Below, one piece after another: positions 16,299 through 63,883 of a stretch of DNA of 64,000 bases. The notes under the pieces are model-generated. The model saw only the letters and a program-made list of their open reading frames with translations. It did not search any database and had not been told where the DNA came from. The stretch lies in contig NC_045148.1 in the NCBI RefSeq assembly GCF_008831285.2, positions 8,003,001 through 8,067,000 on the forward strand, given 5' to 3'. Origin of the DNA: Nymphaea colorata (lineage: Eukaryota; Streptophyta; Magnoliopsida; Nymphaeales; Nymphaeaceae). Numbering within the stretch: the first letter of the stretch is position 1; every line of letters begins with the position of its first letter. Made by a program: the position numbers and the translations under genes.

Positions 16299-16495
16299 AT
16301 ATAAGAAAATGGAATGGTAACTTCAGCTTTTCATAATCACACAACCATCTAACAAGGACCATTCAATCCATCATGATGGATAGTTAAAGAAAAACAAAAG
16401 AAAAAAGTGAAGGGTATTTTCATAATCTAATATTTGTTTATACTTTTTTCTTTTTGTTTTTCTTTAAAGCATCTATCTGTTTTAGATGGATGATC

Positions 16496-16529
<34 letters not shown>

Positions 16530-19129: not shown

Positions 19130-19290
19130 CAGTGGCAGAATCAGAAATTTTTGGCCGAGGGACACTAATACATCAAATTCTAACTTTAAGGGGTAACTGA
19201 TATATAAATAATTAAATGGCCGTAAGATATTAATATAAAAATAAAGAAATTTATGTGGACTGGTGTTCGCAATTGCCCACAATGGCCCAT
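19130..19290. repeat. Dispersed short element, GGCAATTGCCCAC family
   Basis: It begins CAGTGGCAGAATCAGAAATT and ends near a short palindromic motif, GCAATTGCCCACAATGGCC. Related copies, sharing the RAATTTTTGGC start and a GGGCAACTGCCCAC-like end, lie at about 29512-29706, 29768-29905 and 49870-50025. The CAGTGGC-type terminus suggests a hAT-like non-autonomous element; this is inference. Confidence 0.45.
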
Positions 19291-22410: not shown

Positions 22411-23047
22411 ATATAAAATTATATATTTTTAAGTCTAGTTTTCTGTCAATGGCAACGATTCGTGATTCGTGTTGAGATGTAGGGCTTTCTCCCTCTCGCA
22501 GTGGATTCTCTGGTACACCTTTCTAGGTCTTCAGTCTTTACTTTCCCGTTTGGGGAGTTCCTTTCTTCGGTTTTTGAAGGATGTGAGCTGAATCCCACCT
22601 CTCTCTTGAACCATGATGATGGCGGTTCTCGCCTCTGATCCAAGGCGGGAATTTCGTCTATGGTTCCCGAAAACTCCGCGCTAGGACTACCACTTTGTAG
22701 TTTCTTCATTCTAGCCCTGATTCCGAACTCAGAAGGTCAGAGGTCCTCGAGCGCTCGAAATCGTGGCCTTTTCTGAATTTTCTGGGGCTACCGAAGACCT
22801 CCGGTCACGAAATCGGGACAAATTTCGGAATTTTCTGAGATTTCGGAACTCAGAAAACCTCTTTCTGTGTTGACTCTTGGGGGAGGACGTGTGTGGATGG
22901 TCTGCAGCCGAGAAGCAATGTTCTTATCTGGTAAAATGGTGGTTTTTGAGCTGGTGTAGGTTCGGGGTTAGGAATTGGAGCTGCCCTCTTGCTTTGATCT
23001 GTAAAATCAGTAGTGTTGCCTACATCAGCTACTGACAATTTGTGAGG

Positions 23048-26000
23048 ATGCTGACGAGGAAGAAGAAGGACGTCGCCGGCGGTGGGCAGGGCGCTGGAGT
23101 TCCCTCCTTCCCGGATGAAGTTCTGGAGCATGTCCTCGCGTTCGTGAGATCTCACAAGGACCGCAGCGCGGTTTCGCTCGTCTGCAAGGATTGGTACGCG
23201 GCGGAGAGGTGGACCCGATCCCATGTGTTCATTGGGAACTGCTACTCCGTCTCGCCGGAGATCCTCGTCCGGCGGTTTCCAAACATCCGGAGCATCACGC
23301 TCAAGGGGAAGCCACGGTTCTCCGATTTCAACCTCGTTCCAGCCAACTGGGGCGCTGACATCGGGTCGTGGTTGGTTGTCCTGGCGAAGGCCTATCCCTT
23401 CCTCGAGGAGCTGAGGCTCAAGAGAATGGCCGTGACCGATGAGAGCCTAGATTACCTGGCGCAATCGTTCCCCAATTTCCGGGCGCTCTCGCTTGTTAGC
23501 TGCGATGGATTTAGCACCGACGGCCTTGCCTCAATTGCTACACATTGCAGGTGGCTGTTCTTCTGATTCTTCCTTGTCTCCGTTTGCCTGCTGATGTTGA
23601 TTTGCTTCCGGAGGGTTTTTTGCGACGTATATTTCCTTTTCTATCATCTGTTGGTGCCTTGGTTATTGGATTTGATGGTTTATTGAATTCCAAGTATGCT
23701 ATATGTGTTAAGTGTCAAGCACTCTCTTATTATATTTTCCTATTTTTTATAATTTTTCTTTGTCTACTGCCATTTCTTCATTATTTGGTGGAAGTGTGGT
23801 ATTATACGTTAGTGACATGAACCCTCTTAGTAATTTTTTGTTGCATGTCTATGGGATACCGTCTTTTCTTCTTTTTTTGGTTGCCACCAGATATATTTCC
23901 ATATATTGGTTTGTATTTCTGGTTTTATGCTTGATGGTTTTTTGAAGAAAATGTGCTTAGATTTTTTTTACCTTTATATATATATATATATTGTTGTTGT
24001 TTAGTGATGGCTATCATACCTTTCTACTCCAAGCAACTTTTGCCTTTCCGTATGCATTTTCGTATTAACGTTTCCTTGCTTCTCTCATAACACTTACTTG
24101 GGTTTCTCAAACATTGCAAATGCAACTTCTGTTGAATGCTCTCAAAACTGTAGCGATGTGTTTAGTGTAGGCATTACATGCCTTTTTTAGTGGGTGAACT
24201 TTATCCTGTTGTGGTTATGAATGATTGAGCTGATGGAGTATGACTTTGAGGTTTCTTGGCATGGCCTGGGGGGCAACTTTCCACTTTGTTTTGTGCACTT
24301 TCTTTAAGACTGAGCATTTCTTAATATTGGATTGCTCATCTCCTCTGAAGTGGTGAAGTGTGCAAGCTATATAGCCATCATACATATGTATGGCCATCTT
24401 CAATCATTTGATAATCCATCTGTTCATGGCAAAGCTTTTTAATGCCTATTGGATCTGAGCCCTTGAGACCCGAGCCAAAAGTAATCACCCTATGCCTTGT
24501 TCTTGTTAAGATGTCTGAGCCAAATGTTTTGTACTTCCTATTCATGGTCAGTATGACCTTGACAGTTATGCAATTGATTGGTAAGACGTAATTGTGAAAT
24601 ATGCTGGTTCTTGATTGTCAGAAGACTCAAACCCCTGTGGTATGTTCTTCAAATATATGCTGTTCTCAATGCCTGCAAAATTCAATTTTATGCCTTCTGT
24701 TTGTCTGAAATATCATGCTGATTGATTATTTCAAACTCGTTCTTAAAACTATTACATTTTCAGGAACTTAACGGAGCTGGACATACAGGAAAATGACATA
24801 CTTGATCTTGGAGGGAGCTGGTTAAGTTGCTTCCCTGAAAATTTTACATCACTTGAAGCTCTAAACTTTGCAAGTTTGAACAGTGAAGTCAACTTCGATG
24901 CTCTAGAAAGGCTTGTATCTAGATGCAGGTTTCTGAAAGTCCTGAAAGTAAACAAGTGTGTCACACCAGAACAATTGCAGAGGCTTCTTGTGAAAATTCC
25001 ACATCTGGCTGAGCTTGGAACGGGATCCTTTTTCCAAGAGCCCACCCCAAGGCTAACTGCCGAGCTCAGCAATGCATTCAGCAATTGCAAAAAATTACAC
25101 ACTTTGTCAGGTTTATGGGACGTGACACCGTTGTATATTCCTGCACTATCTCTAGCCTGTGCAAACCTTACATTTTTGAATTTGAGTTATTCAGTCCTTC
25201 AAAGTACCGAGTTGGTTCAGCTGCTTGCTGGCTGCACTCAACTTCGACGCTTATGGGTATGTGATACGCGATGGAGGTTTGCAATTTATGTGTATATTGT
25301 TGTGAAAATTTTGCATGGTTGCAAAAGTATTTTGTGCTTTCCTGGTTTCCAGATTATTAGGAGCATGGTTTCTGCATGTAAGTTGGGTTTCTGTCTTTAG
25401 TGGTCCTTGTCGCTCTGTCTGGCTTTTATTTTCTTTTTCAGCATTGACCAATAAATAATATGCAGCCTTTGAGTGTCTGATTGAGAATTGGTTGTGATAT
25501 TGCCTATTTTTTATTATTTCTTCTGGTATTTGACAATTGATGACATGTTACCATTCGGCGTCTGGTTTGGAGCATGGTTTCCACATAGAACTTGGGTTTC
25601 TGTCTTAGCAGTCCTTGTTGCTTTGTCTTTTGGCTTTTATTTTCCTTTTCAGCATTGACCAATAAATAGTATGCTGCCTTTGAGTGTCTGATGGAGAATT
25701 GGTTTTGATCTTGTCTAGCTTTTTATTATTCCTCTCTGGTATTTGACAATATATGACATGCTACCATTCAGCATCTGATTTGGAGTTGGTTCTGATCTTG
25801 CCCTGCTTATGGTAACTTGCTTTGAGTGGTTTAAAAGATCTTTGCGTTTGGAAGCTTTGCCAGTTGACTTGTTTGGTTTTGGGATTTTCAACTAAGCTGG
25901 TTCCTGAGTTGGTTACAGATTTTAAAGAGCTGGCAAGTAGAAGATTTTACAGTGTTATTTTAGAGGGCGTTTGATATACCTAGAATCATTGAATTTGAGA

Positions 26001-27160
26001 ATCAAAATGCTCATTTTTTAAGAAATTGGAATTATTAAACAAACGAGGTATTTTGTTACTGAAATTAGGAAACCAAAACCTGAAATTTTGATTCCATTCC
26101 AGTTTGAAGAGGAATTATGATTCTGGAATTTTCATTCTTGAATCAAAATTCCAAACCATCATATGCTCCCTTATTGAAATACAACCTTTTAGCCACATTT
26201 GTATCAGCCGTCACTGAAAACCCTAGGTCTAGGAACTTGTCTTTGTTCATAGTCTAACCAGTTGTCTATTAACCCTTCTCAATGTTAATTGGTCTTCTCT
26301 GTTGTGCTTCTTTAATATGTTTCAACTCACATTACACCTTCACTTTTCTGAGCTTGAGTTCTCTTGTGTTCTTCTGACTTGTTCCTCCTTATTTGACCAA
26401 CCTTCAGGTCTTGGACACTGTTGAAGATAAAGGATTGGAAGCAGTAGCATCTTCATGTCCAGAGTTGGAAGAACTACGTGTTTTTCCTGCTGATCCTTTC
26501 GAGCCTGATCTTGGTGGTGTCACTGAATCTGGGTTTGTTGCTGTCTCATCCGGTTGCCCAAAGTTGAGCTATGTGCTATACTTCTGCAAGCGGATGACAA
26601 ATGCTGCTGTTGAGAAAGTTGCTCAAAACTGTCCAAATTTCACTCACTTTCGTCTCTGTATCATGAACCCATGGGAACCAGATTATCTCACAAATGAGCC
26701 CATGGATGAAGGCTTTGGTGCTGTGGTTAAACATTGCAGCAAAATTCAGAGGCTTGCTGTATCTGGGCTTCTCACTGACCGCACATTTGAGTACATTGGC
26801 AGATATGCCAAGAACTTGGAGACACTTTCCGTGGCATTTGCAGGCAGCAGTGACCAGGGAATGCAGTATGTGTTGCAGGGATGTCCAAAGTTGCGGAAAC
26901 TAGAGATCAGAGATTGTCCATTTGGCAATGCAGCCTTACTATCGGGACTGGAACGCTATGAATCTATGCGGTCATTGTGGATGTCTGCTTGCAAGGTGAC
27001 AATCAATGCCTGCAAGATACTGGCACGGCAGATGCCTAGGCTCAATGTAGAGGTAATCAAGGAAGGTGAGAGTGATGAGATGCAGGCAGAGAAAGTGTAT
27101 GTATACAGGACGGTGGCCGGCCCCAGAACAGATGCACCACCTTTTGTTCTTACCCTCTGA
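23048..27160 (+). CDS. F-box/LRR auxin co-receptor, TIR1/AFB family, AFB6-like (3 exons)
   Basis: This is the substrate receptor of an SCF ubiquitin ligase that binds auxin together with Aux/IAA repressors and sends them for degradation in the nucleus. Exons are 23048-23550, 24764-25256 and 26408-27160, joined by a split Arg codon and a phase-0 junction; the product is 582 aa, close to TIR1 (594) and AFB2 (575). The F-box covers about residues 19-60 (FPDEVLEHV...SLVCKDWY). The LRR solenoid follows, with the family blocks FIGNCY (61-66), [11 protein letters not shown] (85-95), [62 protein letters not shown] and MRSLWMS. The C-terminus is [22 protein letters not shown] 23048 is the first ATG in frame and lies just before the F-box; the AFB4/5-type N-terminal extension is missing. 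The middle and end read like the AFB6 clade (inference). Arg90 replaces TIR1 His78. Exon 1 is more GC-rich than exons 2 and 3. Confidence 0.93.
23551..24763 (+). other. Intron 1 of the TIR1/AFB gene
   Basis: A 1.2-kb, T-rich intron with a short TA tract near 23976-23990. The apparent open frames at 23545-23945 run over T-rich DNA and are not exons. Confidence 0.8.
25361..25785. repeat. Tandem duplication, period about 209 bp, two copies
   Basis: GAGCATGGTTTC at 25361 recurs at 25570. Long shared stretches include TTTTCAGCATTGACCAATAA and GCCTTTGAGTGTCTGAT. Substitutions are scattered along the copies, so the duplication is not very recent. Confidence 0.9.
25963..26171. mobile_element. Probable MITE in intron 2 of the TIR1/AFB gene
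   Basis: The left end GAGGGCGTTTGATATACC is matched in inverted form by the right end, which on the other strand reads AGGGAGCATATGATGG. The inside is non-coding and rich in GGAATT, TTTTGATTCC and GAATCAAAA motifs. Flanks TTATTTTA and TTATTGAA could be a degenerate 8-bp target duplication, as in hAT elements. Confidence 0.5.
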
Positions 27161-29511: not shown

Positions 29512-29905
29512 GTGGTGGAGCAAGAAATTTTTGCTAATGGGGCATTGTTATAGAAATTCTAATTTTTGCTAATGGGGCACTGTTATAGAAATTCTAATTT
29601 CTAAAAAGGCACAACATATATACATATGTAAATAACTGTAAGAAATCTATGTATAAATAAATAAAAATTTTGTTGTTGGCTGGGAAACTGCCCACGTCAG
29701 CCTATATGTAGCTACGAGACTGGTTCATTTAAGAATTGCTTTTGCTTCTACCTTGTAATCAGCAGCCAAGTTAGAAATTTCTGGCTGAGAGGCACCATTA
29801 ATACTTCAAAGAACTTTTAAGGGACAAATAATGAAATGAATGTAGAAATACACAAGTTTTTTGTGGATTCTAATCTCCCAAGTGCCTCCGCCACTGCTTA
29901 TCATC
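29512..29905. repeat. Two copies of the GGCAATTGCCCAC-type dispersed element
   Basis: The first copy (about 29512-29706) contains a short internal tandem repeat, AATTTTTGCTAATGGGGCA, twice, and ends at GGGAAACTGCCCACGTCAGCC. The second (about 29768-29905) begins GTTAGAAATTTCTGGC and ends near CCTCCGCCACTGC. Both resemble the element at 19130. Boundaries are approximate. Confidence 0.45.
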
Positions 29906-37212: not shown

Positions 37213-37259
37213 GAACATCCAGCAACACGTTGGAGAACTAGGTGTCCTTTTTGCCTGAA

Positions 37260-37298
37260 ATGGGCATCTCCCAATGCGTCCACTGGTTGAAGGAATAG
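37260..37298 (+). promoter_or_regulatory. Overlapping upstream ORF of ARM gene 1 (12 codons)
   Basis: An ATG at 37260, with G at -3 and G at +4, opens a 12-codon frame that ends at a TAG at 37298. It overlaps the longest ARM start (37274) in another frame. The 37274 ATG itself has C at -3 and C at +4, a poor context. Confidence 0.5.
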
Positions 37299-39070
37299 TG
37301 AAACTGGAAATGTGGAAGCAGGATGATCAGCTGAAGCCGGAGAAGGAGAAGGCGGCGGAGGAGTTGGGGAAGCATGTGGAATCCCGACAGCAGGAGTATG
37401 GATTGCGTCGAGCAGTGGAGTTGATTGCGTCGGTGACGGTCGGCACACACTCGACGCGGACTTTCCCGGTGAAGTGGCAATCCATCCGCGCTAAGCTCGA
37501 TCGGCTCCACTCCGACCTCTCCAAGGCGTTGCTCCTTCTAGACTCCGCGTCGGCCTCCGACAACGGCGGCCATGCCGGCGAGCTCTCCGCCCTTGGTGTC
37601 CGGTCGATCATTGCAACGCTGCATAAATGTGCCGCCATGGCGCACATCTGCACGGAGCTGACCTACAGTGGGAAGCTTCTGATGCAGAGCGACCTTGACA
37701 AGATCTGCGGTCGCCTCGACGAGCATCTCCGGCGCATAGACGCTGCGTATCAGTCGGGAGCCCTTGCTGCCCATGCTCTGGCGATCGTCGTCTCCCGGCC
37801 TCCCGCCGGTGCACCTCGAGAGGACGTTCAGTTTTTCGTGCGCGACCTCTTCACTCGTGTGCAGATCGGAACCAGAGCCATGAAGGTCGAGGCACTCCGG
37901 GCACTTGAGGAGATCGTCTGCGAGGAGAAGTACCAGAGGATCGTCGTCCAGACCGGCGAGGTAGCTCAACTGGTGGTGGTTTTGGAGTCGGACGACGTCG
38001 AGCTCAGCAATAAAGCGGCAAGAATTCTAGCAGCAATCGCTCGGAACGAAGAGCACAAGGCTGAGCTCGTCTCCGCCGGAGTCATCCCCCCGGCAATCAG
38101 GCTTTTGGAGAAGGGCAGAGGCCAAGGGAGGGAAGCCGCCGCCGTGGTGCTTAACCGACTCACTGCTTACTCAGAGAACGCATGGTCAGTTTCATCTCTA
38201 GGAGGAGTAACGGCGTCGTTAGCCGCCTGCCACACCACGGAGAGCGTCCTTCGGCGAGAGGCAGCCGGGATACTGAGGAACCTGGCAGGAGTGGAGGAGA
38301 TCCGGCGGTTCATGGTGGACGAGGGCGTTGCCTCGGTCGTCATCCGCCTTCTAAATGCAGGCGATGACGACACAAAGATTTATGCGACTGATTGCTTACG
38401 AATGATGTCATCCGGCGACGGATTTTCTAAGAACTTAATTGTTAAGGAGGGTGGTGTCCAGTCGCTGGTGTCTACTTTGGGTTCGAAGTCGCCGGAGTGC
38501 CGGGAGTTGGCATTGCAGGCCATCGGAAACTTGGTATCGTCACCAAACTCGGCAAAGATCGTCGTTCTTTCCGGCTTCCTCGGCTGGATCCCTTTGATCC
38601 TTAGATTCGGAGAGTTTGGAAAGCAGCAGCCTGCGGTGCGGGCCGTGAGAGACCTTGTGAAGCTATCCGATGAGGCAAAACGTGCTGCCGGAGACGCGGG
38701 AATCATGCCGGAGTTGCTCAAGCTTCTCGACGCAAAGTCCGTCGCAGTGAGAGAGATGGCCGCGGAGGCAATATCGGAGATCCTCACCGTCCCCAAAAGC
38801 AGGAACAAGTTTGTTCAAGAAGATCACAACATCGTTCGCGTCCTCCAAGTGCTCGACTCAGACACCGGCACCGGGGTGCGACATTTTCTCCTTCTTGGTC
38901 TCATTTCGGTATCAGGTTCCCCGACGGGCAGACGGAAGATCGCGTCGTCCGACAAGGCGCACGCCGTCGAGCGGCTCGCAGCGGCTGATGACCCGGAGGC
39001 GAGGCGCATTCTCCGGCGCATAGCCGGCAGCAAATTCAAACAGATCCTTGGCGGCATTTGGAGATCATGA
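37274..39070 (+). CDS. Armadillo-repeat protein, At5g50900 type, copy 1 (intronless)
   Basis: An intronless frame of 598 codons. The N-terminal third (about 25-200) is helical and carries the family blocks FPVKWQSIRAKLDRLHSDL, LTYSGKLLMQSDLD and IVVSRPPAGAPREDV. About residues 200-520 form a series of armadillo repeats, recognisable by motifs such as NKAARILAAIARNEEHKAEL, REAAAVVLNRL, REAAGILRNLAGV and CRELALQAIGNL. The C-terminus has FVQEDHNIVRVLQVLD and ends KFKQILGGIWRS. The overall order matches Arabidopsis At5g50900, for which I know no firm biochemical role; ARM repeats usually bind proteins. The longest frame starts at 37274, but the ATG at 37310 (MWKQ) aligns with the family start MGK and may be the true one (586 aa). 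It has a tandem paralogue at 43481. GC-rich compared with its flanks. Confidence 0.9.
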   Translation: MRPLVEGIVKLEMWKQDDQLKPEKEKAAEELGKHVESRQQEYGLRRAVELIASVTVGTHSTRTFPVKWQSIRAKLDRLHSDLSKALLLLDSASASDNGGHAGELSALGVRSIIATLHKCAAMAHICTELTYSGKLLMQSDLDKICGRLDEHLRRIDAAYQSGALAAHALAIVVSRPPAGAPREDVQFFVRDLFTRVQIGTRAMKVEALRALEEIVCEEKYQRIVVQTGEVAQLVVVLESDDVELSNKAARILAAIARNEEHKAELVSAGVIPPAIRLLEKGRGQGREAAAVVLNRLTAYSENAWSVSSLGGVTASLAACHTTESVLRREAAGILRNLAGVEEIRRFMVDEGVASVVIRLLNAGDDDTKIYATDCLRMMSSGDGFSKNLIVKEGGVQSLVSTLGSKSPECRELALQAIGNLVSSPNSAKIVVLSGFLGWIPLILRFGEFGKQQPAVRAVRDLVKLSDEAKRAAGDAGIMPELLKLLDAKSVAVREMAAEAISEILTVPKSRNKFVQEDHNIVRVLQVLDSDTGTGVRHFLLLGLISVSGSPTGRRKIASSDKAHAVERLAAADDPEARRILRRIAGSKFKQILGGIWRS

Positions 39071-42518: not shown

Positions 42519-43480
42519 ATAACGTGTACGTCAGTGCCACACAACGTAATGAAAGATTATATGTACTTGAGAACGAAATGTTTGAGTTTGTCCGAATTTT
42601 AGAATCTATCCTGATATTAAAAAAAGGTTTTTTTTTAAAAAAAAAAGGTTATCAAGCATTTATTTCCGTACGATCGTTCTAACTGTTTGGTGGTGCGTCT
42701 TTTCCAAAAAAGAGATGGAAAAAGAGAGGATTCAACCACTGCCTGCTGGGAATCTCATAAAAACTTAGCTGAGGAATGGATTCTCATTCTTCTGCCACTT
42801 GGATTTGAGAAAGATCAAGCGCATGATATGAATCTGATGTGATAGGTTTCGCTGATACTGTCGAAATATCAACAGTAAATCTTTCATCCACCTAATACTT
42901 TTGTTTTTTTTTTTTTTTTTTTTTTTTGTATCGAGAGAGAAGGTAGGATTTAAAATCAAAGGTCTGATCTTAAATCCAGGATTCTTAAATCCTGGGATTT
43001 TAAATCCGAAGCAGTCAAACGCCCTCAAACTAGCTAGATCTAACTCTCTCTCCGATTAAAGTTCCTTTGGTTACAAAATCACTTCCGTTCTTCTCACTGT
43101 GTGCATGCTTCAGATGCTTCTGTCAGGTGTAAAGTCCCAAGATGTTCGCTGTATTTCTAACAGGAAGGAAGGAACGCCGTGGGTGGCTGGAACCACTACG
43201 TGTCAAATTACCGAATTACCCTTAACGGTCTTGTTACCCCTACAACAGGCGTCAACAGAATCTAGTCCACCGCCAGAGTGACATTCATGTTATTTAGTAA
43301 CAACGGTATAGGCAAAAATGTCAACATCATCTTTTTGAGAATCCCGTCCCGCCATAGTACTAAATTCTCCACCCGCCCCCTCCCGCCACCGTCAGAGACC
43401 CATCTTTCTCTCTCTTTCTGATTCCGGCTGCAGTTCCGTGAGATCCGGCCTGGATTTTCGTGTCTAATGGATGCTTCTCC
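42517..43480. other. Spacer and 5' region of ARM gene 2
   Basis: A T-run at about 42904-42927. Next to it is a segment rich in GGATTTAAAATC and CTTAAATCC motifs that is nearly palindromic (42950-43010). The second ARM gene's leader must lie within the last 200 bases; a CT-rich stretch is at 43404-43416. In another frame, ATGs at 43467 and 43471 overlap the ARM start. Confidence 0.5.
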
Positions 43481-45265
43481 ATGGGGCACGAAGGCGGTGG
43501 AGTTGTGAAACCTGAAATGGGGAAGCAAGTAAGCGAGCGATGGCCGGGCAGAGCGAAGGAAGGAGGAGGGTTGGAGGTGAAGGTTGGATCCCGGCAGTCG
43601 GAGTGTGGTCTACGGCGAGCTCTGGACCTGATCACGTCGGTGACGGTCCTCACACACTCAACACGAGTTTTCCCTGTGAAGTGGCAGTCCATCCGTGCCA
43701 GGCTCGACCGGCTCCATTCGGATCTCTCCAACATCCTGCTCCTTCTAGACTCCGCTTCTGCCTCCCACAACGGCGGCCACGCCGTTGGGATCCCCTCGAT
43801 CATCGCAACGTTGTCCGAATGTTCTGCCATGTCGCGCAGCTGCACAGAGCTGACCTACAGCGGGAAGCTTCTGATGCAGAGCGACCTCGACAAGCTCTGC
43901 GGTCGCCTGGACGGGCATCTCCGGCTCATAGACGGCGCCTACCGAACGGGAGAACTCGCCGCGCATGCCATGGCGATCGTCGTCTCCCGACCACCCGCTG
44001 GTGCGCCTCGGGAGGACGTTCGGTTCTTCGTGAGCGACCTCTTCACGCGTGTTCAAATCGGAACCACAGCCATGAAGGTGGACGCGCTCCGGGCACTCGA
44101 GGAGATCGTCTGCGAGGAGGAGAAGCATCGGAGGATCGTCATGGAAACCGGCGAGGTGGCTCAACTGGTGAGGGTTTTGGAGTCGGGCGACGTGGAGATA
44201 AGCAAGAGAGCGGCAAGAATTCTGGCAGCAATCGCTCGCAACGAAGAGCACAAAGCTGAGCTCGTCTCAGCGGGAGTCATATCCCCTGCAATCGGGCTTT
44301 TGGAGAAGGGCAGAGGCCATGGGAGAGAAGCCGCCGCCGTGATGCTTAACCGACTCACTGCTTACTCAGAGAACGCATGGTCAGTTTCATCTCAAGGAGG
44401 GGTGACGGTGTCGTTGGCCGTCTGTCAGACAACGGACGGCATCCTCCGGCGGGAGGCTGCTGGAATCCTGAGGAACGTGGCTGGAGTGGAGGAGATCCGG
44501 CGGTTCATGGTCGACGAGGGCGCTGTCTCCGTCGTCATCGGCCTCCTAAGGTCAGACGATGAAGAGACTCAAATTTGTGCGGCAGATTGCTTACGAATAA
44601 TGTCGACTGGCGACGTATTTATTAGGAGTTCAATCGTTAGAGAGAAAGGGATCCAGTCCCTCGTGTCTTCCTTGATCTCCAAGTCGTCGGAGTGTCGAGA
44701 ATTCGCCTTGAGGGCGATCGGAAACTTCGCATCCTCGCCGACCTTTGCAAAGGTGGTCGTTCTTTCCGGCTTCCTCGGCTGGATCCCCGCGATCCTTAAG
44801 GGAGGAGAGTTTAGAATGCAAGAGCCGGTGGTGCGGACTGTGCGAGACCTCGTTAAGGTTTCCGATGACGCAAAACGCGCTGCCGGAGACGTCGGAGTGG
44901 TGCCGGAGTTGCTCAAGCTTCTCGATGCGAAGTCGGCTACCGCGAGAGAGATGGCCTCCGAGGCAATATCCGAGATTCTCGGTGTCCCGAAAAACAGGAA
45001 CAGGTTTGTTCAGGAAGATCGCAACATCCTTCGCGTCCTCCAAACGCTCGACGCCGACACGGGCACCCGAGCACGGCAGTTTCTCCTCCTCACTCTCATT
45101 TGGGTATCGAATTCCCCGATCGGCAGACGGAAGATCTCGTTGTCCGGTTCCATCCGCGCCATCGAGCGGCTGGCCGAGGGCGACGTCCCCGAGGCAAAGC
45201 GGATTGTCCGGCGAATTTCTGGTGGAAAATTTCGAAAGATCCTTGGCGTCATCTGGAGATCATAA
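43481..45265 (+). CDS. Armadillo-repeat protein, At5g50900 type, copy 2 (intronless)
   Basis: Tandem paralogue of the gene at 37274, in the same orientation about 4.4 kb downstream. The longest ATG-started frame encodes 594 aa. The ATG at 43517 (MGKQ), with G at -3 and G at +4, aligns with the family start and is a strong alternative (582 aa). Domain order is the same: an N-terminal helical region with FPVKWQSIRARLDRLHSDL and LTYSGKLLMQSDLD, armadillo repeats with REAAAVMLNRLTAYSENAWS and REAAGILRNVAGVEEIRRFM, and the C-terminal FVQEDRNILRVLQ..KFRKILGVIWRS. Most differences from copy 1 are conservative substitutions, with a few small indels, for example loss of residues after SHNGGHA. Both copies keep full-length frames, so both are probably functional. 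Role unknown; protein binding is inferred from the fold. Confidence 0.9.
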   Translation: MGHEGGGVVKPEMGKQVSERWPGRAKEGGGLEVKVGSRQSECGLRRALDLITSVTVLTHSTRVFPVKWQSIRARLDRLHSDLSNILLLLDSASASHNGGHAVGIPSIIATLSECSAMSRSCTELTYSGKLLMQSDLDKLCGRLDGHLRLIDGAYRTGELAAHAMAIVVSRPPAGAPREDVRFFVSDLFTRVQIGTTAMKVDALRALEEIVCEEEKHRRIVMETGEVAQLVRVLESGDVEISKRAARILAAIARNEEHKAELVSAGVISPAIGLLEKGRGHGREAAAVMLNRLTAYSENAWSVSSQGGVTVSLAVCQTTDGILRREAAGILRNVAGVEEIRRFMVDEGAVSVVIGLLRSDDEETQICAADCLRIMSTGDVFIRSSIVREKGIQSLVSSLISKSSECREFALRAIGNFASSPTFAKVVVLSGFLGWIPAILKGGEFRMQEPVVRTVRDLVKVSDDAKRAAGDVGVVPELLKLLDAKSATAREMASEAISEILGVPKNRNRFVQEDRNILRVLQTLDADTGTRARQFLLLTLIWVSNSPIGRRKISLSGSIRAIERLAEGDVPEAKRIVRRISGGKFRKILGVIWRS

Positions 45266-45715: not shown

Positions 45716-47826
45716 AATTGTAAGTAAAATATTTACCCGCTTTTTAGCACTCTACCCAAGGAACCAATAGATTTCTTCACATAGATTTAGTAACTAATCT
45801 GTTTGGGTGAAAAAAATAAAAAGAAAACTTTAGCCTTCATAGGGGAAACCGGAGCTTGCAAACCAAACCAACAAGGGGTCTAGTAAATGCGATTGATATG
45901 TCAACTTCAGTTAAGTTATTAAGGGAGTGGTTGTTAGTTTTGGTAACTTTTTCTCCTACAATCAAACACCGCTCAAGTTTTAATGAGCCAACACTCTTTG
46001 GTACCCACTTTCAAGTTAGGTGAGCTTCACTTTTCATAACTTCATATACATTAAAACCCAAGGAACGTTTCACTTTTTCTTGCTCCATAAATCCACGAAG
46101 CTTCTTATGGTCGATTGATTGTTAACATCGCTATTACTACCATGAACTCTTTCATAATATCGTTGCAGAGTTTTTATGATATCATTTAATTTGTTTACCA
46201 CCCACTTGTCCTTATTGATCTTAAGAATACTATTGTAGTAAACAGATATTAAGTTAATAATCTTTTAGTCTAATACTGTTTTTGTAGCAATAGAAAAATA
46301 AATAACTCTTACAACATCAAACTTTCATACTAAAGAAATCAATATTTTCCATAGAAATAACTTGAATTAAGACTTACTTTACGTCAACTTAGTTTTTATA
46401 AACAACGTACATATTTTGTTTAAAAAGTATTTTATATAACAAATCATCCTGACCTAACTGGATAAATATATCAAGCATAGGCATAATAACCACTAATCAA
46501 GGCCTAACCATATGTACCAATGTTACATTTTCAAAAAAATCGAGTCTGATGGACGTAGAAAGAAAAAATCGTTCGAGTACTCGACCCGAATCGCTATTAG
46601 TTATTAAATACGACAACGTATCCATCAACAAAATCATAAGCTAGCGGATCTAATGCAAACAAGTTGGTTCCTGTACTATAAATGTGTATTATATTTGTGT
46701 ATAAAAAATACAATATAATGACGAGTTTATACAGACAAAAACTAAATGAACTTAATTTAAGTGACTAAAGCGCTTGACGACGAGGGATCACATTGGGGTC
46801 GGCTAATTTTCCGGACCCAGTAGGTGTGCGCGCCGAGCCATGTTTTGTCTTTGAGCGAGCGGTGGGGCACCTTGAGTCAAGGGAGACCTGGACCAAGTCT
46901 TGAGTGTCCTGGCCCCTGATCTCGAATGCAAAGTCTCGGGAAAATTTCTATTCATGAGAGATATGATGGATGATTCAAGGAACATAGTGTTGTAATAAAA
47001 TAAATAAAATATGTACGTAGTTTGATTTCTGTGAAGCGTTATGCCTCTATGTTTTATGTCTTGGAGTTAGGTAATTTAGGTAAAAGATACACATTATTAC
47101 TATCGATGATGTTGAAATGGTGGGTTGTGAACCTTTTACTCTTACTCGCTCACAGATATGTGATCCTTTTGTGGTTGTTTGGTAAACGAAACACTTTGTC
47201 ATTGTTGCATAAACTTACTCTTAAATTTGGAGAAATTTATAGGCACCTAGTTTTAGAGTTTCATGAATCTGCTTTAATTTTTTTTTTATGTAGATTCGTG
47301 GGACACTCACATGGTGTTTCAACATACAAATAACTTTAATCACCGAAAGAGAGATGATGTTAACAGGTTAATCAAATGAAAGCAACAATTTCTCGAAAAT
47401 ATCAGAGTTTAGAACAACTAGTATTTTCGAGAATTTTATCGAGGCTTCAAGAACCATCACATGAAAATCGACTGCTCACTCCATATATTTCCATTGCGCC
47501 ACAAAAGATGGACTACATGAGCAATGCTAGGAATTTTTTATTGCAGGAATCAAATTATAGTTTCAAAAATTCAATAAAAACCAATTTAAAATTTTTTATA
47601 TAAAATAAACAAAAAATTTCAAAATTTACACTATAAAATTTTATATATATATATTTTTAATTTGAGGAGGGCCAACCACGAATGACTTTGACATGGTTCT
47701 TGATACTGAAAGTCGTGGATTCAGATCAGACAAATCCTGAAAAATGCTCAACACCTTATAAATTGTATGCCATTCATGGCACTCTTCACACGCGTGCACG
47801 CCCACACACACACGCACGACCGCAAA
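45716..47826. other. Intergenic AT-rich DNA, no gene seen
   Basis: The frame at 47022-47333 is leucine-rich only because the DNA is T-rich, and resembles nothing known. No RNA gene or clear element was recognised. Confidence 0.5.
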
Positions 47827-49592
47827 TCAAATTATTTTAATGAAATAAAACGAAAAGCAAAGAGATTTCAGATTTTTAAAATGACTTAATTGCCACTCAT
47901 TTCTGGTTCTATGGACGAAAACAGGCTGTGCTTGATAAACGAATCTCATGTGGGGGGAAACAGAATAATTTGCTGAACTTTCCCCTTTTTTTCTCACAAA
48001 TGACCAATTCGTCCCCACAATTACTGGTTTGGATCTGGACTTACATCTGGTGAACCCGATTTCCAAATTTGTTTTGGATCTTGGATCAGGTGGGCAGTAC
48101 GGCCATATCCACATACAGATGAGAAATCTCGATCCAATGATGGGCCTCAATGCAAATATTTAAATGCTATCCTTAAACATGGTAATATTTACAAAACTAT
48201 AAGTACCAATTATATTGCCGCTCATATGATTAGAAATTACGGAGTTCAAGCACATGACTATGACTTCCTAAGTGGCAGACTTTTATGGATCTATATTTGG
48301 TTTCAAAGACCAGCCTCGTTGGACCCCTTAGTTTGACATATGGATATGGATCTATATTTTGGTTCCATCCCGCACAAATCGGAAAGAAAAAGGTTAGACA
48401 GCTTTACCATAAGTTTTGATGTCCGGGACCCGAAACGGAGGGCACGTCAGTAATTAAGGTGGCTCTCTTGTGAAATGACTAGAGTAGCCCTTACAATTTG
48501 CTGATGTCCAGCTAGGAGCAAAACAGTCTTATCGCCTGTGGCTTTATTTTAAGTTTTCAACTGTGGCGTAAAATGTAAATCTAGCTTATTTTGTGTGAAA
48601 TGACAGTATTGCCCTTATCTACAAATACGTAGACGGAACAACCCAAGCGAGCTTCCTGTGAAGCCAAGAAAATATTTTATCCAGATCATGAAGCGGATGA
48701 GGGAGCATTCCCTGCTTCGCTGCTTCATGTGCTGGAGGAAATATTTTTTGGCCTTACACGAAGCTTTCGCTTGGATTATTCCGTCTATGTGTCCACAAAA
48801 AAGGGCGTTACTGTCATTTCACACGAAATAAGCTAAATTTACATTTTACTCCACAGTTGAAAACTTAAAATAAAGCCACAGGCGATAAGACTGTTTTTGC
48901 TCCTACCTGGACGTCACCAAAGCGTGAGGACTACTCTCGTCACTTCGCAAAAGAGCCACCTTAATTACTAACGTGTCCTCGAGTTCGGGTCGGGTTCGGG
49001 TATGAAAACTTGTAGTGAAGCTGTGGGTATCTGATTTGTGCGGAGATGAAACCAAAATGTAGATCCACATCCGTGTATCAAAATAAAGGGTCCAACGAGG
49101 CAGGTCTTTAAGTCCAGATCTAGATCCATAAAATTCTCCCACTTTAAAGGAAGTCATAGCGATGCTTGAGCTCATAATTTCTAATCATCTAAGTGTGAAA
49201 TTATTGATAATTGTAGTTTCCTAAATAATACCAAGTTTGAAAATAACATTTAAAAATTGGCACTCAGCCCCATCATTGGATCCAGATTTCTCATACGCAT
49301 GTGAAAACGGCCGTTCTACCACCTGATCCAGGATCCGAAAGCACAGAATCCCAGTTCCCATTGAAAAGCAGGTCCAACAGATGTAGGTCCTAATCCAAAC
49401 CAGTAATTGGGGACGAATTGGTCATTTGTTAGAATAAAGGCCAAAGTTCCAAAAAAATAAAAAAGAAAAAGCTACGAGACTCGTTCAGCAGGCCTGTTTT
49501 TGTCAACAGCACCAGTAGTCAGTGGTAATAAGGTCATTTCAAAGATCTGAAATCTTTTTCTTTTTCCCTCTCTTACATTTTAAATAATTGGA
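47827..49592. mobile_element. Large foldback: near loop-free inverted repeat of about 1.77 kb
   Basis: The two halves are reverse complements of each other over about 880 bp per arm, meeting at about 48706 with a loop of only a few bases (GGGAGCATTCCC). Paired blocks include CAATTCGTCCCC..ATTACTGG (48005-48030 with 49400-49425), GACTTCCT..TTTTATGGATCTA (48259-48294 with 49123-49158), GCCTCGTTGGACCC (48314 with 49090) and CAGGCGATAAGACTG (48527 with 48878). Mismatches and small indels are spread along the arms; by eye roughly four fifths of positions agree. The outer ends are near CAAATTATTTT and AAATAATTGG. There is no transposase-like frame. It may be a foldback element, a long-TIR MULE derivative, or an inverted duplication. 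Confidence 0.85.
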
Positions 49593-49798
49593 TTTTTTTT
49601 AAAAAAGAGAAAAAAAAGAGTGCACAGTAGTAACATTAGGTATTTGTATTTGTTATTATTTAGTAAAAAACTAAGCTTGATTTTGTAAAATGGTGTCGTT
49701 TTATAACTGGAAAATGCAAACTCAACTGCGCATCTTTTTGGGGGCAAAGAAAAAAAAAAAAAAAAAAAAAACTTAGCCTATTATAACATCTATTCTTG
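49593..49798. other. Short spacer with an A-run between the two foldbacks
   Basis: Contains an A-run of over 20 bases at about 49749-49771. No gene. Confidence 0.6.
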
Positions 49799-50474
49799 TT
49801 GAAGAACTTCAAGGTCAAGAGCTGTTTACCTGAGCTCAATCTGTTTACGGTGAAGCCAAAAAAATTGGTTGGAGGGGCATTTGTTTAAACAAACTTAAAT
49901 CTGGTGTGACACTTATATACATATAAAAATAAATTTTTAAGATTTTTTATTAAAAAAAAAACTTTTAAGAGGCTGGTGTGGGCAACTGCCCACACCAGCG
50001 ACAATGTGGCTGCGCCACTGGAACAAACTGGTAGAAACTGGGTCTATCTAACCACACCTTGCTTGTAAAGGAAACCATAAACAGACGGCAGAGCTAAGTC
50101 AAGAAGATGCTTTGTCGCTGCATCCTAGTGATGAAAATGACAGTGGAGCTCAGTAACGGAGCTACTTGTTGGCTGGGGTGGTCCACTGTCCACGCCGACC
50201 CATAAAAAATTTCATTATAATGTAAATTTAAAGTCGTGACAATGTAAGGTTAATGCATTATAATGAAATTTTTGATGGGCTGGCCAACAAGTAGCTCCGC
50301 TACTGAGCTCCACTGTCATTTTCATAACGACGAAGCATCTTCTTGACCTAGCTCCGCTGTCGTTTATGGTTTCCTTTACAAGCAAGCTGGGGTTAGGTAG
50401 ACCTAGCTTCTCCAAGCTTATTCCTAAACAGATTCCGCCCCGATAAGCAGCTCTTTAACCCCGAAGTTCTTCAA
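49799..50474. mobile_element. Second foldback, with nested elements
   Basis: The outer ends TTGAAGAACTTC (49799) and GAAGTTCTTCAA (50463-50474) are inverted copies. Pairing continues inward through AAGAGCTGTTT, ATCTGTTTA, GCTTGTAAAGGAAACCATAAAC, AAGAAGATGC and ATGAAAATGACAGTGGAGCT. The core (50151-50305) has its own ends, CAGTAACGGAGCTACTTGTT and its inverted copy. The left arm is longer because a segment at about 49880-50025 has no partner; it ends GTGGCTGCGCCACTGG and resembles the element at 19130. No coding content. Confidence 0.75.
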
Positions 50475-52754
50475 CTTAAGCCAACTTCCTAGCTGAGGAT
50501 TTTGTACATATGGTTTATTTATTTTTTGATTTATTTGATTCTTTCATTCTTTAGTTAATGACAATTCCGGGAGGCAGCAGATATGAGTCTGAATCCAATG
50601 AAAACAATGGAATAAATGATGTCTATTTGAATAAAAATATTTGTCAAATAGACATATTCTCCAATAAAAGAGTTACAAGCAAACACCCACATATTGATCT
50701 ATTAGACATACAAATCTAGTTTAAAAAGTTTTTCTCAATGTAGAAAAGGATTTGGTCTCTCTTGAAAAGCCAAAGGAAAACTTGCTTACAAAAGCTTTAA
50801 GAAAATATAAAAAGAAAAGCAATGAGAAACATATGAACAACATACCAAGAAATTAGCGCTTCATGGCATTATCAACAACTTCTTCATACTATACAATGAG
50901 AAGAAGAGATAATTGTATTGTATTGCACCAAGAAGAACTTGAGGCATGCGTTTTATAGCCAAAGCATCAATTTTATAAGGTAACTACAGATTCCAAGGAA
51001 TTAAAGTGAAACTATAGCGAATGAAGCAACTATAAACATAAAAAATCAAAAACTTCATGCGCTTTACTTTTTGGCAGAACAGTTTCCTTTTATAAGTTAA
51101 TTTCTTTTTGCACTTTGTGTAAATAAAACTATGCATTTGAGGAAAATGAGTAAGAGGAAGGGATAACTTCAAATTTTTAAACTTATTTTCCTTAACTATT
51201 GAAGCAGTGAATATGATGCTTCCTACTATTGATTGGCTAAATATTGAATCTTATAAAATCTGACAATTACAATCTATTTTAGCTAAGAATTCTTTCTAAA
51301 CACAAAGAAATTGATATTGAGGGTGGGCATCTGACCGGTTGTTTGGTATCATGTGAGTATTTCATGAATCTACATGGAATACTTGTTCGAGTGTTTCATG
51401 AATTTATTTTAATTTTGAGGCAGATTCAGGTATAACATTCATATGTCTTTAATCTTACATCAAATACCCAATCAACGATTCAAGTAGAAAATTGTTGATA
51501 AATTTATGGCAGTCATTGAACATGTATTTCTATTTTAAATGGTAGTTGCTAAATAACATAATATGGAATAATCCTAAACCATGTCATATTCAGGAGGATT
51601 TGATCTTTCTAGAATCAACATATTCATAATTAAGGGAATGAAATAGACATGGCCTCTCATTATAAACTCTAAATAACATTCACATGATTGAGGCATATCC
51701 ACAACCAATTAATATAAAGCAATCTCAAACAATTATAAGTAAGAATTATGGCATATTAAACATACTCCTTAACTTCAGTTTTTTTTTTCACTTTTTTTCA
51801 ATTTTTTAATGTCAACATTTTTTTTTTCATTTTTCATTTTTTATTTGTTTCAGATGTACTTATCTTTTGATGTTTGTGTTATTAGCTTCTCATTTATTTT
51901 ATCTTACCATCATTTTAAGTTTTTTAAATTTTTTAAAAATTTACCGCATTTATTTTTTTTTCAAGCTCATCATATTATACTTGAGAAAAACCTCACTGCT
52001 TAAAACTTCGAAACGTTATTAGTGACTATGATATTAATCTACTGCTAGGTTATTAAATTGAATTTACTTAAAAAAAATAATTCTAATTAAGGCCCCCAAA
52101 GGTAGACCGTGTACAATCATAGCCCTTCTACAAAGAAAAAGAAAATAATTTATTTCAAATCATGCTGAAAGTAACTTTTTCCTTCATAATTGATCCTGTT
52201 TTCCTTTTCCAAATTAATCTTGTCACAAATTCAAAACAAAAACCCCAAAATTTCCAAACCATACAAGTCCCTGGACCTTGTTAAACCCTACAATTTATGT
52301 AATTTGATTCAGATTTCTACCATATTTGGACATTATTTTTTAATCGAATTTGGATTTGACCAGCATAAGGTCTGACATTGCGTTTGATACGTATTAGATT
52401 TCAGTTGGATATCAGATTTCGTAATTTGGATTCCATACTTGTGAAGCTGCAGACTTAACTCAGCTAATCAGATTAATTAGCAATAAGTATCCCGATTTCT
52501 TAACCAGATCCAACTAAACATGCTCTAAAATTTGAACCATAATCAGATCTACCACATCCATTTGGTTCCCCAGTTATCATCTTCATCACATTTGTGTCAC
52601 ATTTTGACATTACTGCAGTTTGGATCCAAGACCAACATGCTGAACAAAAAGTACTGGGCCTGTTTTAGTTAGAGCAATCTACAATCAGATAGTACAAAGT
52701 GCGGCGACTGAATACCCCGTTGCCGCATTCACTATCCTCCGTTGTGATTGAGGA
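50475..52754. other. Intergenic AT-rich DNA, no gene seen
   Basis: T-rich stretches at 51780-51850 give short phenylalanine-rich frames that are not genes. No RNA gene or clear repeat was recognised. Confidence 0.5.
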
Positions 52755-58780: not shown

Positions 58781-61700
58781 ATGGCCGGCGGTGGGTTTGT
58801 TGAGACCCGTGAAATGAAGAACTACGCAGGGAAGGTCACGCTGTTCGTCGTCTTTACCTGTATAGTCGCTGCTACCGGCGGTCTCATCTTCGGATACGAT
58901 ATCGGGATTTCAGGTCGAGATCTGGAACGATCTTGATTTCTATTTCCTTGTTACTTTTGCTTTCGATGAGTGTTGATGGTTTTCCTTTTAGGATATATTT
59001 TTTTTTTTCTGATGCGTGGAGTCGAACTTCGCATCGAGATCCGGGATGGACAGGAGACGACTTGCAGATTTTCATTTTCGAGGAATTTTTTTTAAGTTCT
59101 GGACTGTGATATTTCCCTGAACAATGAGACGAATTTCAGCAATCTTGCTCGGTTTCTATAAGCGTTTTCTAATAATTTTATTTCTCAATGTTAGATCTCT
59201 CTGGCTTTCTAGATGACTTCATTAGGTATGAAGGTCAAATGTGCTCAGAGATCTCTTCCTGAAAAATCGGATTAAATGTAAATTGAGGAACTTATTTTTC
59301 GAGATTATTTTCAAGTTATGCATGCAAAAACTACTATACGATTTTCCGTTTCTTTCGTTAGCATTTTATGGACAGATTATGGGCATCCTTTTTCGACAAA
59401 AAATTTTGCCCTTTGTCTGGACCAGCAGTTTACTTTTTGTGCATCTCCTCACCAAGAGATTCCATTTCTAATTGTCCGAATTTTTTATGATGTTAGGTGG
59501 AGTGACGTCCATGGACCCATTCCTGGTGCGCTTCTTTCCGTCGGTGTACCGGAAGATGGAAGCCGATAGGAGCCAGAATCAGTACTGCAAATTCGACAGC
59601 CAGCTTCTAACGACGTTTACATCGTCCCTCTATGTCGCCGGACTCATTGCCTCGTTCTTTGCATCGACGGTGACTCGAATGTTCGGGAGAAAGCCGTCCA
59701 TGCTCTTCGGCGGTCTTACCTTCCTTGTCGGTGCGGCCGTCAACGGCGCGGCCAAGAACGTGGCCATGCTCATCATCGGTCGCATTCTGCTCGGTATCGG
59801 CGTCGGGTTCGCCAATCAGGTAAAGATGGGATCTCCTTTTCTTTCTTTTTTATTCTTCTTTCTGATTTTCCGTGTTATTTCAGAAGATTCCGCCATCATT
59901 TACTTTTATTCACATTTTCGCTTTTGTGTTCCTTCATCTTCCCTGCAATTCTCCCAAAAGTTCGTTCCTCTCAACCTTTTCGTGATGACGGGTTTGTCCT
60001 TTTCTTTCTGAGCTCGACTGTCAAATACCGAATTCTGACACTTCTCGTCTCAGAGCACTGGTCAGCCCTTCAAAGTGCTGTTACTCGGATGCTTCCTCTT
60101 CAGTTTGGATTATTATAGTTCTGTTTCTCTACCCTTCATTTTTCCTGGATGCTGACATGCTGGCTTTTCATTGAAAATTATACAAGTTGCCATTTACTCC
60201 AGATGATATAACAAAAAAAGCTCAAGCTTGGAAATTTCTATTTAACCGTCTTTCTATTTCCGAATTAAGCGTACTCATGAGCGTGACCTTATCATTCTTT
60301 CCATGAACCTCTATCCATAGTGGATAAGCCCACCTAATTTCCTAAATCGCCTCATCCATCCCGTGAGTCACAGCGTGGCAGACGATTCTCTTCTCCTGCC
60401 CTCCGCCGTTCATGCTGGGAACGGACGGTTGATTAAGAGCACAATAAAGACTTATCTTTCTGTGCCGGTAAAAATTATAAAGTAGGAAAAAGAAACAGAT
60501 AGCCAGCTCTTGCAGGCATACGACCGGGTTCTTATCCGAATCCACGCGTCCTTTTTGATGGTTGGACTGAAGAACGAGTCACTTCACGGAGGGGAAGGTA
60601 CACGAGCCTAGTGCAACATCTCTCAGCATAGAGCCGAGGGAGTTCATCGAATCGGCCCTGTGATCGGTTGTCATGGCAATGGCATTTTGACATCGTCGAT
60701 TATTTCATCCACGTCAGCAGTTATCGAGTCCGATGGCTAACTGGTTGCCCTTTCTAGCGTCCTTTCCTGCCTACGTATTGAATAAAAAACTGCCACCAAT
60801 GGTTTGCTTGCTTTTTGGCTTTCACTTGTAACGGAACCAGCATCCGGCGAGATCGATGTTGCCTATTTTAGATAGTTACCTATTAAAGTTTCCTTTTTTA
60901 GCTTTTTCCCAAGAAAAATTCTGAGGTACGTATTTATCACTATGTTTTTAGAACGTAGACACGTAATGTCATACAAGTTTATTTGTATGCGCAGATAAAA
61001 TTTTACTCAACTATACATTTATACAAATGTTAATTCGTATAGTCATCTGTTGTTTCAGGTGCTATTTATAGTTTTGTACATTCAAAAAAGCCGATTTTCG
61101 TGGACCTGTAAGTTTAAATCGCCGCAATAACATTTGCATGATTTACAGATTTGAAAAAAATTATTTTCTGAAGCTTAACTGTAAAAATTTTGCCCTTTAC
61201 AAATTCTCTCCTAACACACGGTGATGGCCTGGCTTTCTGCGCTCCTCCTTTAGCGTTCCTTATCTTTTGGTGGTCACAGAGCAGCTACCGTGGGACACCT
61301 TGACGAGGCCTGTCTTTATCTTTCCCGTCTTGACGTTGCCAAAGTTTGAAATTAGTCCCAGTTCCTTTCATACATAACATAATTGTTCTCTTTGTCATAG
61401 ATCTACATTTGCGTCCTATGGTCCTGTGTCCATTTTTGCCAATTCCGTGGGCCTTGGGTCTAGGGAAACGTTCAAATTATGCTACTTTTTTTTTTCCCTA
61501 CAATTGGGCCTTCTTGGAGAGACACAAACAATATCCCATTATTTTAAGCACAAAAATATTCTGGACATAGTTTCCGGAACGACGCAATTGGTTTCGCAGA
61601 CGCTGATATTTTGAGTTTTCTACTTTCTTTGCAGACAAGTCATTATAATTGTAAAATACTTCCGCCAGTTGTCACAGTGAGGAAACCAGATTTGTCATCC

Positions 61701-63883
61701 TATACACATGTCCGGACATTCTACTCTTAAATTACGCTTGTGATATGTCTATATCGTTCATTTGCAACCCCAAGCAAGAACAACAGAACAATCCATCAAA
61801 AAGATGATTGATGAAACGCCTTTTGCAGCGGCTTCCAACTCATGGTAAAAGACAAACAATACATTTAATATTTAGGCATCTTTCTCCTTGAACGACCACG
61901 GTATCCTTGTCAACTCATTTATGTCAAGTTAGTTGTCATTTTCTGAAACCGAGAGTCCGTTGCGCATATTCCACTCTCTTTTCTATTACTTGCCCGCAGA
62001 GTTAAAAACTTGCCGCCATCTACCTTGGCCTTCTGAGCCTGAAACTTAACTATTCTTCTTTTCAATGTCATGAATACCAAATGTTTCCCGTTAGAATAAT
62101 TGGTTCATTGAATTAGGAAATACGATGAACATTGTTCATAAATGCTTAAAATTATATTTCAAATTGCGGATCGATTTTTCACCTTATGCATCCCTGATTC
62201 ATCACCGCAGAATCTTTTCTGGAAACCCGCCTTACTATCTAGTGCTTATGAGACTGACAGTGGTTTAATCGTACAATTTGCAGTCTGTACCAGTCTATCT
62301 TTCTGAAATGGCACCGGCGAATCTGAGGGGAGCCCTCAACATTGGCTTCCAACTGTTCATCACGATAGGCATCCTGGCCGCTAACCTCGTCAACTACGGC
62401 ACCAATAAGATCAAGGGCGGATGGGGCTGGCGCGTGAGTCTGGCCCTGGCCGCCGTGCCTGCCGTGATCATGACCGTCGGGGCGCTCTTCCTCCCCGACA
62501 CCCCCAACTCACTGATCGAGCGTGGCCACCAAGAGCGGGCCAAGCAGATGCTCCAGCGCATCCGCGGAACCACCGAGGTGGACGAGGAGTTCCAGGATCT
62601 CATCGAGGCCAGCGAGTCGTCCAAGCAGGTGAAGCACCCGTGGGCCAACATCGTGTCACGCAAGTACCGGCCTCAATTTGTCATGGCCCTCGTCATCCCC
62701 TTCTTCCAGCAGCTCACCGGCATCAACGTCATCATGTTCTACGCTCCCGTCCTCTTCAAGACCATCGGCTTCGGCAACAACGCCTCCCTTATGTCCGCCG
62801 TCATCACAGGGGTGGTGAATGTCGTGGCCACGCTCGTCTCCGTTTACTGCGTGGACAAGTATGGGCGTCGGTTCCTTTTCCTCGAAGGGGGGATCCAGAT
62901 GTTCTTGTGCCAGGTACACCTTTCTCATCCTCTAATAAAAAGCTACAATTTTGTGTGGTATGGATAATAATGTGGTCGACGGATTTTCTGTTATTTGCTT
63001 CTCTGATGATGTCAGTAAGTGCATATGGTCATATTCTTGCTTTTCATTTATGAGGTCATCTAAAGCTTCAATGTTCTAGACTTATACTCTGCATTAGTAC
63101 ATGGTTCTGGGCTATCCATCATTCACCAACTTGAATGTCTGCTTTACTGCCATCTAGATTGCTAATCAACTTAGGTATGTGTGTGTGTGGGAGAGAGGGG
63201 ACAGAGAGAAAGAGAAGAAGAAGAGAGAAACAGAGGACCTGCTAAGATTATAAAAACCCATCTCAACCAATCTACCTTGTCACTAACGCTGGTAGGATAG
63301 ATATTAATTTAATCACATACTGGTAGTGGACTGTTGATTCAGTTGGACGAATGGACAGTATACTTAATCCTCAATTAGGCTAATGACGGCCCTCTGTTCT
63401 TGTCCCCCTCTGTGTTTCATGCAGGTGGTGATTGGAATCATCCTTGGGCAGAAGTTCGGACTCTCCGGCACAGGCAGTCTGACCAAGAGCGAGGCCAACC
63501 TGGTGGTCTTCTTCATCTGCGCCTACGTTTCCGCCTTCGCCTGGTCCTGGGGTCCCCTCGGATGGCTGGTGCCCAGCGAAATCTTCCCCCTGGAGATCCG
63601 TTCGGCTGGTCAGAGCATCAACGTCTCCACGAACCTGCTCTTCACCTTCGCCATTGCCCAGGCCTTCTTGGCCATGCTCTGCCACTTCAAGTTCGGCCTC
63701 TTCTTCTTCTTCGCCGGGTGGGTCCTCATCATGACGACGTTCATCTACTTCTTCCTCCCCGAGACCAAGAACGTCCCTATCGAAGAGATGATCCTTGTTT
63801 GGAGGAAGCACTGGTTCTGGGGCAAGGTCCTGCCGGCCGACGACGAGATGGTCGAGATGCAGAAGCCGAAGACCTCAGCGTAG
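58781..63883 (+). CDS. STP: Sugar/H+ symporter, STP (monosaccharide transporter) family (4 exons)
   Basis: A plasma-membrane hexose/proton symporter of the major facilitator superfamily that imports monosaccharides from the apoplast. Exons are 58781-58913, 59497-59819, 62284-62913 and 63425-63883; all joins keep frame and give 514 aa, normal for STPs (about 500-525). Signatures are [15 protein letters not shown] (37-51), RMFGRKP (105-111), [14 protein letters not shown] (139-152), [50 protein letters not shown] (408-426) and [11 protein letters not shown]. Asp40 and Arg140 correspond to the proton-site pair of Arabidopsis STP10 (Asp42, Arg142). Cys75 and Cys448 correspond to the cysteines of its extracellular lid (Cys77, Cys449). 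Twelve membrane spans are expected. The ATG is the first in frame before the conserved [13 protein letters not shown] segment. Exons 3 and 4 are GC-rich against AT-rich introns. It reads as a general hexose STP, but the isoform and sugar preference cannot be fixed. Confidence 0.95.
58914..59496 (+). other. Intron 1 of the STP gene
   Basis: A 583-bp T-rich intron that splits a glycine codon of the SGGVTSM signature. Nothing else was recognised. Confidence 0.85.
59820..62283 (+). other. Intron 2 of the STP gene
   Basis: A 2.46-kb intron between the codons for FANQ and SVPVYLSEM. No element with clear ends and no coding signal was recognised; frames at 59924-60118 and 61346-61614 are chance. 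Confidence 0.8.
62914..63424 (+). other. Intron 3 of the STP gene
   Basis: A 511-bp intron with a short GT run and an AG-rich stretch at 63180-63236. Confidence 0.85.

Follow-up and report, generated by a model that had tools for sequence, protein, structure and literature searches.

DNA elements that consist almost wholly of long inverted repeats have been described in several organisms. MuTAnT and the FARE1 family (cited in PMC4486113) are described there as foldback elements built almost entirely of long inverted repeats; they often lie near genes and include many decayed copies with target duplications that are hard to define. MuTAnT itself, a Mutator-like foldback element of Medicago, is reported to be 292 bp long with two 144-bp terminal inverted repeats (TIRs) and 218 related elements; it inserted in TA microsatellites with 9-nt duplications, and 25% of its copies are defective, their duplications being difficult to define (PMC4486113). 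The Tm1 Mutator/Foldback elements of root-knot nematodes have composite inverted repeats with a varying number of a ~14-bp motif, along with 9-bp duplications and a transposase-coding group (PMC3169594). In VANDAL21, arrays of a short motif in non-coding element DNA run in the same direction and are bound by the element-encoded VANC protein (PMC5735166). SaTars are described as numerous, non-autonomous, MULE-type elements with TIRs, mostly flanked by microsatellites and joined into arrays, many of them without a target duplication (PMC5907723). Long inverted duplications are also found in Mu killer (PMC3440606) and IR71 (PMC12825306, PMC5910406). IR71 of Arabidopsis is transcribed into a ~3-kb double-stranded RNA that is cut by DCL2 and DCL3, and secondarily by DCL4 (PMC12825306). 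A long hairpin RNA is produced by IR71 (PMC12825306, PMC5910406) and has been proposed for Mu killer; the short antisense transcripts of Mu killer offer an explanation other than the hairpin (PMC3440606).

New microRNA genes and hairpin small-RNA loci can arise from near loop-free inverted repeats as long as the one described here, and rearrangements take place at foldback elements. With an old hairpin that retains a preserved block, one could ask whether loci of this type are maintained or simply decay. The present hairpin lies in a 64-kb stretch of the Nymphaea colorata genome (the window). Local alignment of its two halves revealed an imperfect, near loop-free palindrome of 1772 bp at 47824-49595, with the following parts, all defined by that alignment:

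47824..48704, + strand, left arm of the palindrome, 881 bp
48705..48708, no strand, loop of 4 bases
48709..49595, - strand, right arm of the palindrome, 887 bp

Pairing runs the whole arm length and is not confined to short blocks. The 915 alignment columns comprise 704 identities, 149 mismatches and 62 gap positions, and the score of 480.5 compares with a maximum of 48 in 50 mononucleotide shuffles of one side. BLAST (E <=0.01) recovered the same arm pairing, 76.6% over 899 columns. The near loop-free inverted repeat of ~1.77 kb proposed by the initial annotation is therefore confirmed, as is the divergence of its arms by substitutions and indels; its placement at 47827..49592 was right in location and 3 bases short on either side in extent. 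An ungapped search of the window for inverted repeats of at least 50 bp with partners within 3 kb returned 12 pairs, namely seven from this palindrome, two from its neighbour (50020-50424), two from TA runs and one that is widely spaced (13699-13762 with 16293-16356). By local alignment, the flanks beyond the arm ends are unrelated to each other. The outer arm ends are AT-rich and carry no recognisable terminus. A CA-rich stretch (47783-47823) abuts the left end of the palindrome, and an A/T run lies at the right end.

We interpret the hairpin as a decayed, non-autonomous foldback-type DNA element that would give hairpin RNA if read through, and assign this reading a probability of about 0.6. 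It fits the unrelated flanks, the 4-base loop, the lack of coding sequence in the stretches scanned, the motif repeated within each arm and the presence of two other palindromes nearby in the window. As in foldback elements, long inverted repeats (881 and 887 bp, against a loop of 4 bp) make up most of the sequence, and the element would consist almost solely of two long TIRs that meet at the loop. A single insertion at this site may have been followed by drift, in the course of which the target duplication would have been lost. The motif copies could be binding sites for a transposase or another element-encoded protein supplied from elsewhere. A read-through transcript would fold into one hairpin and could be processed by Dicer-like enzymes. 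Judged from its sequence, the locus is probably an ordinary case of a known kind, resembling a foldback element and probably having behaved as one. Counted against this reading are that we saw no target duplication, no second copy in the window, no tandem array and no transposase. Among the origins considered in the initial annotation, a foldback transposon is the best supported, through the motif and the two further palindromes; membership of a Mutator-like group is not claimed, because no target duplication was found and copies were sought within the window only.

The hairpin differs from MuTAnT in its length of 1772 bp, in having one known copy (in the window searched) and in having no duplication (PMC4486113). 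Neither the 9-bp duplications nor the transposase-coding group described for Tm1 is seen here, and the motif copies are spaced 119, 475 and 125 bp apart in the left arm (PMC3169594). The hairpin resembles VANDAL21 in that a short motif recurs several times with one orientation, but the VANC21 motif, YAGTATTAY, is different, and the copies here are far apart rather than in a dense array (PMC5735166). By analogy, protein binding of the VANDAL21 type is a plausible role for them. The two neighbouring palindromes and the CA-rich stretch at the left end recall the SaTar arrays, although at our locus the CA-rich contact is short and confined to the left side (PMC5907723). Mu killer and IR71 are both transcribed and IR71 makes small RNAs (PMC3440606, PMC12825306). 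Mu killer also carries part of mudrA, whereas no coding remnant was found in the scanned stretches of our hairpin (PMC3440606).

The motif consists of AAATGAC, a spacer of 6-9 bases and a GCCC-like word. Each arm has four copies of it, all pointing the same way, at offsets 56, 175, 650 and 775 in the left arm and 57, 169, 651 and 777 in the right:

47879..47896, + strand, motif copy 1, left arm
47998..48015, + strand, motif copy 2, left arm; the weakest, missed by the 2-mismatch pattern
48473..48490, + strand, motif copy 3, left arm
48598..48615, + strand, motif copy 4, left arm
48802..48819, - strand, motif copy 4, right arm; missed by the 2-mismatch pattern
48928..48945, - strand, motif copy 3, right arm; reads AAGTGAC
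49410..49427, - strand, motif copy 2, right arm; missed by the 2-mismatch pattern
49522..49539, - strand, motif copy 1, right arm; fails the 7-match pattern

On one strand the left arm has four occurrences of AAATGAC, a frequency that some 7-mer reached in 14 of 1000 dinucleotide shuffles. The commonest 7-mer of the right arm occurs three times, a count reached by 389 of 1000 left-arm shuffles. Because the copies in the right arm are homologous to those on the left, they add no independent evidence. Our first pattern for the motif had seven matches on both strands of the 64 kb, all seven in the hairpin; the patterns were composed after the sites were known, and the sites were picked for sharing AAATGAC. 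An alternative pattern (<=2 mismatches) matched six times in the window, five times in the palindrome and once at 19271; 100 shuffles of the window gave a mean of 1.86, and two of them reached six. When each left-arm copy was left out in turn, 3, 92, 8 and 0 of 124372 outside sites scored as high as copies 1 to 4, respectively, so that copy 2 (92/124372) is weak. The arms contain no tandem array of the kind seen in classical Foldback elements. A second motif, TGGATCTNNATYTGG, occurs 12 times in the window at <=2 mismatches, with five occurrences in the hairpin; the shuffle mean was 4.57 and none of 100 shuffles reached 12. This enrichment is partly due to a 21-bp direct repeat within the left arm (48284-48304 and 48345-48365), which is part of the TGGATCTNNATYTGG motif. 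A search of the plant transposon literature for GAAATGAC returned nothing evidently relevant among the matches listed.

The initial annotation saw neither coding content nor a transposase frame, and both statements hold for the scope covered. The longest stop-free stretch in the hairpin has 110 codons, and no credible Pfam match (best E 0.13) was found in the 9 of 39 stretches of at least 30 codons scanned in the region 47700-49700. The whole window has no Rfam match at the gathering score. Three Rfam hits at E <=1 in 47800-49620, to mir-578 (E 0.053), sR39 (0.26) and snoR43 (0.96), lie far below gathering and are attributed to chance. The earlier view that no clean target-site duplication is visible was likewise borne out. 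We scanned words of 6-15 bp around both ends, exact below 9 bp and with one mismatch from 9 bp, and none of the 29 shared words is flush with both palindrome ends. The nearest 9-bp shared word is set in by 17 bp from the left end and by 2 bp from the right end, and the longest word common across the ends is 5 bp, the commonest value in 500 shuffles. The 8-11-bp duplication typical of MULEs is thus not seen here; decay is possible. GTGCAC, 24 bp outside both ends, proves nothing as a target duplication, because it is only 6 bp long and self-complementary.

The palindrome does not stand alone. We surveyed the window at 252 centres 250 bp apart with arms of <=430 bp, a spacing that can miss small palindromes between centres. 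The median score was 21.5 and the top scores were 213 for the hairpin under study, 116.5 for its neighbour and 58.5 at 16250. The neighbour, also near loop-free, adjoins the first palindrome and has a core at 50020-50424 and outer pieces at 49798-49818 and 50455-50475; its inner arms (50119-50173/50283-50337) are 91% complementary, and its left arm has extra segments. BLAST (E <=0.01) found no similarity between the two palindromes. A 21-bp stretch is common to both at 86% (48653, 49845), perhaps by chance. A Kunitz_BPTI match in the second palindrome (E 0.012, one of 19 stretches scanned) is below the cut-off and was rejected as a coding remnant. The third palindrome, weaker, pairs 16115-16296 with 16299-16500 through 134 identities, 44 mismatches and 28 gap positions, and scores 59.5 against a maximum of 29 in 100 shuffles. 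Its arm also matches 13596-13763 in both senses by BLAST, a lone related stretch 2.5 kb away. The sequences at 16115-16500 and 13596-13763 may perhaps represent a small mobile foldback element, which would place foldback-type mobile sequence in this stretch of DNA. Judged from the 64-kb window, palindromes are not rare in the Nymphaea colorata genome, so the hairpin is less unusual than it would otherwise be, and its reading as a foldback element gains in plausibility.

The arms have evidently been diverging for some time. The 853 ungapped positions differ by 77 transitions and 72 transversions, giving a K2P distance of 0.200, and there are 29 gap runs, of which 27 are 1-4 bases long and the others 7 and 11. 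CpG decay fits 14 of the 77 transitions; CpG depletion in the arms is not clear (0.67 and 0.77, against 0.72 for the window). On the assumption that plant substitution rates of 6.5e-9 to 1.3e-8 per site and year apply and that the arms were identical at first, the palindrome would be ~8-15 million years old. Preservation is uneven. If every gap run is treated as a single event, the alignment has 178 events over 882 columns, and one block stands out against 2000 shuffles:

48506..48604, + strand, best-preserved block, left arm; 5 events over 100 columns, matched or bettered by 4 of 2000 shuffles
48813..48912, - strand, partner block, right arm; coordinates derived from the arm pairing

The longest exact run between the arms, 47 bp at 48520-48566, lies inside this block (10 of 2000 shuffles reach this length). 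Among the best 50 columns there is one event (42/2000), and among the best 150 there are 15 (27/2000). Statistical support for an unusually preserved block is moderate, because several measures were tried on one block. Either constraint or local gene conversion between the arms would explain it equally well.

How the palindrome arose can be accounted for in other ways. Fold-back reads do generate palindromes, but an assembly or read artefact can practically be dismissed here, since the arms differ at 149 of 853 positions, transitions and transversions are nearly balanced where random error would give ~1:2, and gap runs are numerous. These features argue for an old, evolved divergence and against read error as the source of the differences. 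An inverted duplication of ordinary intergenic sequence that arose accidentally during replication or repair, was never mobile and has drifted since is a more serious alternative, although we regard it as unlikely. In its favour, no target duplication was found, the window has no second copy of the arms (BLAST, E <=0.01) and the Pfam scan of 9 of the 39 stretches revealed no transposon protein, whereas a repeated motif running in one direction is not expected of random intergenic sequence. The two other palindromes suggest that such elements occur here, but a duplication-prone genome would show them too. The AT-rich outer ends would also suit two copies of one longer element, placed head to head, of which only the adjoining ends were retained. 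We consider this very improbable, as the 4-base loop leaves no room for separate target sites and the window holds no second copy.

A different question is whether the hairpin is in use. A functional long-hairpin RNA locus like IR71, with pairing under selection and a yield of 21-24-nt RNAs, has a precedent (PMC12825306), and several properties are in line with it. The fold of the full-length + strand has -965.2 kcal/mol, and 722 of its 726 pairs are in register (to within 40 bases), while that of the other strand has -987.9 kcal/mol, both values without a shuffle control; the inner 981 nt fold with z = -52 against 20 shuffles, and one block is better preserved than the rest (4/2000 shuffles). 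Strong folding is, however, a consequence of the palindrome and is not informative on use. The duplex is in register, yet mismatched at 149 of 853 ungapped positions, and the arms share a single exact run of at least 21 bp (47 bp). Where small RNAs are concerned, this scarcity of exact runs counts for more than the fold, and it makes a young, almost perfect siRNA hairpin less likely. Wobble-type differences, a possible sign of RNA selection, show no bias to the + strand (33 for +, 44 for -). Such a locus is improbable in our estimate. A literature search joining long inverted repeats, MITEs, hairpins and small RNAs in plant genomes found nothing. More doubtful still is a living regulatory hairpin, in which a mobile relic would make small RNAs from its inner block that silence relatives or nearby genes, with the eight motifs as promoter or protein docking sites. 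The foldback-type element in decay remains our preferred reading.

Pfam scans of 7 of the 31 listed ORFs of the window place the hairpin among genes. A TIR1-type F-box gene lies near 23036-27160, and two ARM-repeat genes with DUF7032 (37259-39070 and 43442-45265) form a tandem pair, 79.6% alike in DNA over 1849 columns. The palindrome lies ~2.6 kb downstream of the second ARM reading frame. Further on are sugar transporter exons at 59472-60008 and 62269-62964. Other repeats are also present. The sequence at 49911-50021, immediately to the left of the second palindrome's core, is 70-92% similar in parts to 29614-29723, 19223-19281 and 42622-42646, and is perhaps a dispersed repeat. A direct repeat of ~155 bp (52755-52909/53944-54100), 77% identical and 1.2 kb apart, could mark the ends of a small LTR-type element.
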